Made by a program: the position numbers and the translations under genes. Shown one piece after another: positions 39,916-40,148 of a stretch of DNA of 46,466 nucleotides. A model generated the notes under the pieces. The model searched no databases. It saw only the letters and a list, made by a program, of their open reading frames with translations, and was not told the origin of the DNA. The DNA lies in contig JAISZL010000009.1 in NCBI GenBank assembly GCA_031269245.1, forward strand, positions 1 through 46,466. Direction: 5' to 3'. The stretch comes from Synergistaceae bacterium (GTDB taxonomy: Bacteria > Synergistota > Synergistia > Synergistales > Synergistaceae). Each line of letters begins with the position of its first letter. Position 1 is the first letter of the stretch.

Positions 39916-39950
39916 GAAAAAGAGGCCGACTTCTTCAGGTCGGCCTCTTC
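39916..39950 (-). terminator. attenuator terminator upstream of the serine operon
   Basis: On the minus strand, AAGAGGCCGAC (39949-39939) and GTCGGCCTCTT (39930-39920) form a perfect 11-bp stem with an 8-base loop and a run of five T that starts within the 3' arm. It stands between the operon's promoter and its first gene, 69 bp ahead of the aminotransferase start, so transcription must pass it. It could also end liv read-through. Confidence 0.92.
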
Positions 39951-40017
39951 TCGTGTCTGGATGATTTTTATCCTGTCGCGCGGCGTAACTTTATTTCCTC
40001 AAGGCGAGAGACCGACC
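39938..40017 (-). promoter_or_regulatory. predicted antiterminator of the serine attenuator
   Basis: GGTCGGTCTCT (40017-40007), inside the end of the leader ORF, can pair with AGAGGCCGACC (39948-39938), the 5' arm of the terminator, over 11 bp with one G-U pair. The two structures exclude each other. A ribosome finishing at the leader stop (39993-39991) would cover the first arm and let the terminator form. A ribosome stalled at the upstream Ser codons leaves it free. Confidence 0.75.
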
Positions 40018-40110
40018 CATATAACAAAAGCCTCCTGTCATACTGACGGAGGAGCAGGAGAAGAGAGAGGATCCTATGCCTTTGCGGAGAAATACATACG
40101 CGCTCTTCAT
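39991..40110 (-). CDS. serine-rich leader peptide of the serine operon attenuator
   Basis: The 39-codon ORF runs ATG 40110 to TAA 39993-39991 and is too short for ordinary gene calls. Residues 14-23 read SSLFSCSSVS, six Ser and one Cys in ten; eight Ser in total. It begins only a few bases after the predicted transcription start, so it is probably translated as a leaderless or nearly leaderless message; there is no good Shine-Dalgarno. The Ser codons also form a 9-bp hairpin with one bulge (40052-40031), which may act as a pause site. Its last codons hold the antiterminator arm. The peptide itself probably has no function beyond being translated. Confidence 0.72.
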   Translation of the reverse strand: MKSAYVFLRKGIGSSLFSCSSVSMTGGFCYMGRSLALRK

Positions 40111-40119
40111 AATACTTGA

Positions 40120-40148
40120 CTTATACCACCTTATTGGTTATATGTCAA
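40120..40148 (-). promoter_or_regulatory. promoter of the serine operon
   Basis: On the minus strand, TTGACA (40148-40143) and TATAAG (40125-40120) are spaced by exactly 17 bp. It lies 17 bp after the livF stop. A 10-bp palindrome, TGACCGGTCA (40167-40158), overlaps the livF stop just ahead of the -35 and could be an operator. Expected transcription start is near 40113. Confidence 0.85.

Follow-up and report, generated by a model that had tools for sequence, protein, structure and literature searches.

A putative leader-peptide attenuator sensing serine upstream of the serine synthesis operon in Synergistales

Introduction

Can a ribosome translating a short serine-rich peptide decide whether the genes for serine synthesis are transcribed? 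The question is raised by a locus in a 46,466-nt stretch of DNA from a Synergistaceae bacterium (hereafter, the window), where a promoter, a small open reading frame (ORF) rich in Ser codons, and an intrinsic terminator precede a serine synthesis operon. Leader-peptide transcription attenuators are known for the trp, his, leu, ilv, phe, and thr operons. The original prediction, made from the window, had interpreted the locus as an attenuator of this kind that senses serine. Here, we re-examined the locus and compared it with the upstream regions of orthologous operons in the family and the order.

Results

Promoter, Leader ORF, Terminator, and Operon in the Window

All features described here lie on the minus strand. 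The promoter (40148-40120) consists of a -35 element, TTGACA (40148-40143), a 17-nt spacer, and a -10 element, TATAAG (40125-40120); TTGACA-16/18-TATAAN is found at the equivalent place in relatives. A 9-nt gap (40119-40111) separates the -10 element from the ATG, at 40110, of a 39-codon leader peptide gene, MKSAYVFLRKGIGSSLFSCSSVSMTGGFCYMGRSLALRK (40110-39991, with the stop codon at 39991), a Ser-rich ORF conserved across the order Synergistales. Its putative control codons, TCC TCT CTC TTC TCC TGC TCC TCC, occupy 40071-40048; five of the eight encode Ser, an AGT follows two codons further on, and in relatives the Ser columns stay Ser through synonymous change. The leader is followed by an intrinsic terminator (39950-39917; -20.8 kcal/mol) composed of GAAGAGGCCGAC-CTGAAGAA-GTCGGCCTCTT and then a T run. 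The upstream gene, livF, stops only ~16 nt ahead of the promoter, which sits between livF and the terminator. A simple promoter and terminator scan of the window flagged neither element, the promoter because the scan rules require T at the last -10 position (here G), and the terminator probably because the stem takes up its T run. On inspection of the sequence both elements are obvious, and both are conserved among relatives.

The first gene downstream (39847-38717) encodes a class V aminotransferase (alanine/aspartate-glyoxylate aminotransferase-like) that scores below every curated cut-off; it adjoins serA in relatives and, judged from this context, is likely the operon's phosphoserine aminotransferase. 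It is followed by serA (38715-37060), coding for phosphoglycerate dehydrogenase (TIGR01327, 567.5 bits; cut-off, 454). The third gene (37063-36410) overlaps the serA stop and codes for a histidine-phosphatase-superfamily protein, a candidate for the final step of serine synthesis; its best model is phosphoserine phosphatase PspA (136.9 bits, under the cut-off of 350). Hence, the interval from the promoter to the first gene contains a short translatable ORF rich in codons for the product of the pathway, and an intrinsic terminator lies ahead of that gene.

Alternative Folds of the Leader RNA

In the minimum free energy (MFE) fold of the ribosome-free RNA, region 1, AAAGGCATAGGATC (40083-40070), is paired with region 2 and the sequence immediately 3' of it. 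A GGCATAGGA-like motif of region 1 recurs in many relatives of genera g1 and g11. The same fold contains a small hairpin, CCTCCGTCAGTATGACAGGAGG (40052-40031), which includes Ser codons and has CTCC...GGAG counterparts in several relatives. Region 2, GGTCGGTCTCT (40017-40007), lies in the final leader codons and is the putative 5' arm of an antiterminator. Region 3, ACGAGAAGAGGCCGAC (39954-39939), would serve both as the 3' arm of the antiterminator and as the 5' arm of the terminator, the latter being formed by regions 3 and 4.

The duplex of regions 2 and 3 (2:3; -19.7 kcal/mol) is nearly equal in energy to the terminator (3:4; -20.8 kcal/mol) and exclusive with it. Region 2 pairs with region 3 in the computed fold if the RNA submitted excludes everything upstream of 40035 and stops short of the 3' arm of the terminator. 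With a ribosome stalled on the Ser run and region 4 absent, the RNA below it folds as 2:3; with the ribosome placed at the stop codon, it folds as 3:4. The whole leader of the window folds better than shuffled sequences (z = -3.1), an excess that probably comes mainly from the terminator.

Re-reading of the window showed the coordinates and sequences of the original prediction to be right, for the promoter, for the 39-codon ORF with its Ser run, for the terminator with its T run, and for the alternative pairing of 40017-40007 with the 5' arm of the terminator; the serine synthesis operon that it placed after the terminator is present as well, with its aminotransferase, SerA, and phosphatase-like genes. 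The case from the window alone is nevertheless weak, the features being only modestly improbable: the Ser score of the leader was matched by 12 of 100 dinucleotide shuffles and the energy of the 2:3 duplex by 71 of 200. It is from conservation among related sequences that the case for an attenuator draws its strength.

Ser-Rich Leaders Are Conserved across Synergistales

Sequences upstream of orthologous aminotransferase-serA operons were gathered from the family and the order, yielding 65 usable regions. Of these, 55 have an ORF in which a 12-codon stretch includes at least 5 Ser, and 41 have one that reaches at least 6, for example, MVFSTVLEFGTGTSFSGSSSSSSSASSCGRRGSRVAGRQCSPPV (L062) and MNCKTISKSVSSSSLSSGLSSCGWSSPRRRSQSE (L048). 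The shuffle background was 6.6% and 1.4% at the two thresholds, and the antisense strands reached them in 5/65 and 0/65 cases. Upstream of serS, 2 of 28 regions reached the lower threshold and 1 of 28 the higher, and a Ser leader before this gene was rejected. Ser makes up 26.4% of the residues of the 55 leaders, compared with 7.3% in the downstream genes and 7%-8% in the other two frames. Within clades, Ser columns switch among TCA, TCC, TCG, and TCT and seldom lose Ser; such synonymous change points to selection on the peptide code and not on the DNA alone. These data are all genomic, many of the genomes are incomplete metagenome-assembled genomes (MAGs), including the named relatives of the window genome ("Synergistaceae bacterium" MAGs), and related sequences do not count as independent observations. 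The leader starts come from a calling rule and are doubtful at some loci, including L006-L008, L010, L012, L019, and L025; the leader of L006 stops a few codons upstream of region 2.

Regions in which serA comes first, i.e., those without a match to the aminotransferase of the window, have a Ser-rich leader in 11 of 15 cases in the order. In families f2, f3, and f6, as well as in genome G047, serA alone is preceded by the same arrangement of promoter, Ser-rich ORF, and terminator. Its presence in these three families indicates that the leader follows serine synthesis rather than the aminotransferase gene. One genome (G033) has two aminotransferase-serA copies (L005 and L039), each with its own Ser leader.

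Some of the compared loci have no leader (L033, L045, L055, L057, L058, and L120-L123). L033, L045 (genus g9), L055 (g18), and L120-L123 are Synergistaceae serA or aminotransferase-serA operons; L045 retains the promoter and a terminator, a pattern that would fit loss of the sensor ORF. L057 and L058, from family f6 genomes (G152 and G140), have neither leader nor terminator, and their aminotransferase is ~76% identical to that of the window, for which gene transfer that left the attenuator behind is a possible explanation. Outside the order but within the phylum, four genomes of family f11 have the aminotransferase-serA pair and no Ser leader; an ORF of ~175 amino acids (MQVRITARG...) that resembles a ribosome hibernation factor lies ahead of the pair (L112-L115).

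Three Pairings Co-evolve

Because RNAduplex finds too many chance partners on single sequences to prove region 2, we adopted a swap test, in which the leader tail (the part after the Ser run) of each of 54 loci was paired by RNAduplex with its own region 3 or with that of another locus. After removal of main effects, own-partner duplexes were better by 3.1 kcal/mol (z = -7.5; 0 of 5,000 permutations). At the same 54 loci, the terminator arms (3:4) gave z = -18.5 and the head and tail of the leader (1:2) z = -4.5, while the control pairings, head with region 3 (z = +0.5) and tail with region 4 (z = -0.2), revealed no co-evolution; the controls share the same relatedness as the tested pairs, and the z values are not strict probabilities. 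The terminator did not co-evolve with the 5' part of the leader in this test, and a pairing between the two was rejected. For the tail and region 3, the three clades gave z values of -2.9, -3.5, and -1.7, the signal being weak outside family f1 (z = -1.7). Alignment of 13 2:3 stems showed standard pairs in 170 of 182 cells (93%), and two positions had undergone full compensatory change (U-A/C-G and G-C/A-U).

As judged from these comparisons, the co-evolving pairings correspond to the classical 1:2, 2:3, and 3:4 layout and are exactly the three that an attenuator model needs. Region 2 lies at or near the leader stop, as expected of an antiterminator, and the 1:2 pairing, whose region 1 lies within or ahead of the control codons, is seen both in the MFE fold and in the co-evolution of head and tail, consistent with a protector. 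The original prediction of serine attenuation looked to relatives for conserved Ser codons and covarying stems, and would have been abandoned had the Ser run or the pairing been unconserved there; both were found conserved, the Ser codons in the two sets of upstream regions counted above and the covariation in all three stems, and the comparison supports the prediction.

The Leader of the Window's Genus Is Probably Translated Leaderless

The ATG of the leader lies 8-9 nt past the -10 element at every locus of the window's genus in which a promoter is visible (the window, L005-L008, and L011-L016). The promoter table covers L004-L019; the remaining loci were read by eye, as were the starts of L006-L008 and L012. 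In this genus, the 5' untranslated region (UTR) is expected to be ~0-3 nt long, and upstream of the Ser run in the window there is no in-frame ATG, GTG, or TTG besides the leader ATG. Leaders of this genus have no Shine-Dalgarno sequence; most other genera examined have one, and a longer UTR. The spacing, the minimal UTR, and the lack of a Shine-Dalgarno sequence or of an alternative start together suggest that the leader is probably translated leaderless, as has been reported for the leader of the Sinorhizobium meliloti trpL attenuator (PMC7298713).

Discussion

The observed elements, their conservation, and their co-evolution lead us to infer, with a probability of about 90%, that the locus is a ribosome-mediated transcription attenuator whose effector would be charged seryl-tRNA. 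Transcription is predicted to begin just upstream of the leader ATG, with a ribosome trailing the polymerase. When serine is ample, the ribosome would reach the stop codon (39991) and cover region 2 (40017-40007), so that the 3:4 terminator would form and transcription would end near 39917. When charged seryl-tRNA is scarce, the ribosome would stall on the Ser codons (40071-40048), holding region 1 and leaving region 2 free. Region 2 would then pair with region 3 ahead of region 4 synthesis, no terminator would form, and the aminotransferase-serA-phosphatase operon would be transcribed. If the leader were not translated, 1:2 and 3:4 would form and the operon would stay off.

The same elements might have come together by chance, as an ordinary terminator after the liv operon, an unrelated promoter for the serine operon, and a short ORF that is Ser-rich by accident. 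The proximity of livF to the promoter and the ease with which shuffled sequences equal the Ser score and the pairing of the window would agree with this, but the in-frame Ser codons, their position, and the three pairings are conserved over the order, and the promoter is placed between livF and the terminator. The comparative data already refute such a coincidence, to which we accord practically no probability. It is also highly improbable that the ORF is incidental and that the leader RNA itself binds tRNA or a metabolite, as a T-box or a novel serine riboswitch. RNA-based tRNA sensing is available to these bacteria, given the T-boxes in 47 of 53 Synergistaceae genomes; none of these T-boxes, however, is at the compared serA loci. 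At the gathering score of Rfam 15, no family matched the window region or 16 relatives. Neither the T-box model (RF00230; specifier loop and T-box sequence) at the window or related loci nor the covariance model of the serC motif (RF00517) here gave a match, and identity with a T-box or another Rfam RNA was rejected. Moreover, it is the Ser codons, with synonymous change, that are conserved, and not an aptamer sequence. Two weak T-boxes lie on contig C85 of the window genome (G000), and T-box and leader-peptide sensing coexist in the family.

That the leader peptide is itself a product acting in cis or in trans has a precedent in S. meliloti peTrpL, a leaderless attenuator leader peptide with a trans function (PMC7298713). 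Outside the Ser runs, however, the peptide is poorly conserved between genera, and its sequence tracks the RNA pairing (e.g., SQSE* over region 2), which makes this role highly improbable. Less easily dismissed, though still unlikely, is an attenuator that reads Cys, Ser and Cys together, or the Ser-Gly-Cys group instead of Ser alone. Cys accounts for 5.6% of leader residues compared with 1.4% in the downstream genes, a 4-fold enrichment (Gly, 1.3-fold), and both amino acids derive from Ser; given this enrichment, the sensor may not be limited to Ser. Against it, the Ser:Cys ratio in the leaders is ~5:1, it is Ser that makes up the runs, and leaders of families f6 and f10 such as L072 are without Cys in the scored frame. 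TCN codons account for 86.5% of leader Ser codons and 80.4% of those in the downstream genes (Fisher p = 0.004); a strong preference for TCN was rejected, the difference being only slight and open to contributions from base composition or RNA structure.

The proposed serine attenuator resembles those of the trp, his, leu, ilv, phe, and thr operons in its short ORF with a run of codons for the regulated amino acid, in its 1:2, 2:3, and 3:4 stems, and in the terminator before a biosynthetic operon; it differs from them in the amino acid, in its occurrence in Synergistota, and in the leader start 8-9 nt after the -10 element in the window's genus. Leader ORFs with runs of Cys codons precede cys/cbs genes in Mycobacterium and relatives and likewise concern the end product of a sulfur- or serine-derived pathway, but no terminator or conserved hairpins were found there, whereas all stems are present here (PMC1262725). 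The S. meliloti trpL leader ORF also starts at or adjoining the transcription start, a site that is predicted in our case, but it encodes Trp codons and belongs to an alphaproteobacterium (PMC7298713). RNA-level control of these two steps of serine synthesis has also been proposed for alphaproteobacteria, where the serC motif (RF00517) precedes serC-serA; that motif comprises two short stems on the ribosome-binding site, without leader peptide or terminator (PMC1273637). In Bacillus subtilis, ribosomes slow down on Ser (TCN) codons during serine shortage, as we propose here, but in sinR control the translation affected is that of the regulator gene itself, without a leader peptide or RNA switch (PMC3862929). 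A 2010 survey presented a leader peptide beyond Proteobacteria and Actinobacteria as new (PMC2965389). In the open-licence literature, where absence is not proof, we found no description of a serine leader-peptide attenuator and no report of leader-peptide attenuation in the phylum Synergistota. What is new here is serine as the amino acid, the phylum, and the leaderless form in one genus; the mechanism is already known.

More tentatively, and with more doubt than confidence, we suggest that an ancestral serine-specific attenuator of Synergistales turned leaderless in the window's genus, with the sensor ribosome loading at the 5' end as the RNA emerges, and that it may read TCN isoacceptors preferentially and Cys too. 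The probable switch from Shine-Dalgarno to leaderless initiation within one family would provide matched systems in which to study how attenuation depends on ribosome loading.

Serine has six codons, read by separate tRNA families, and the system would lend itself naturally to testing which isoacceptors signal starvation. The proposed attenuator would add serine to the amino acids under leader-peptide attenuation, in a form kept across an order whose genomes also use T-boxes.
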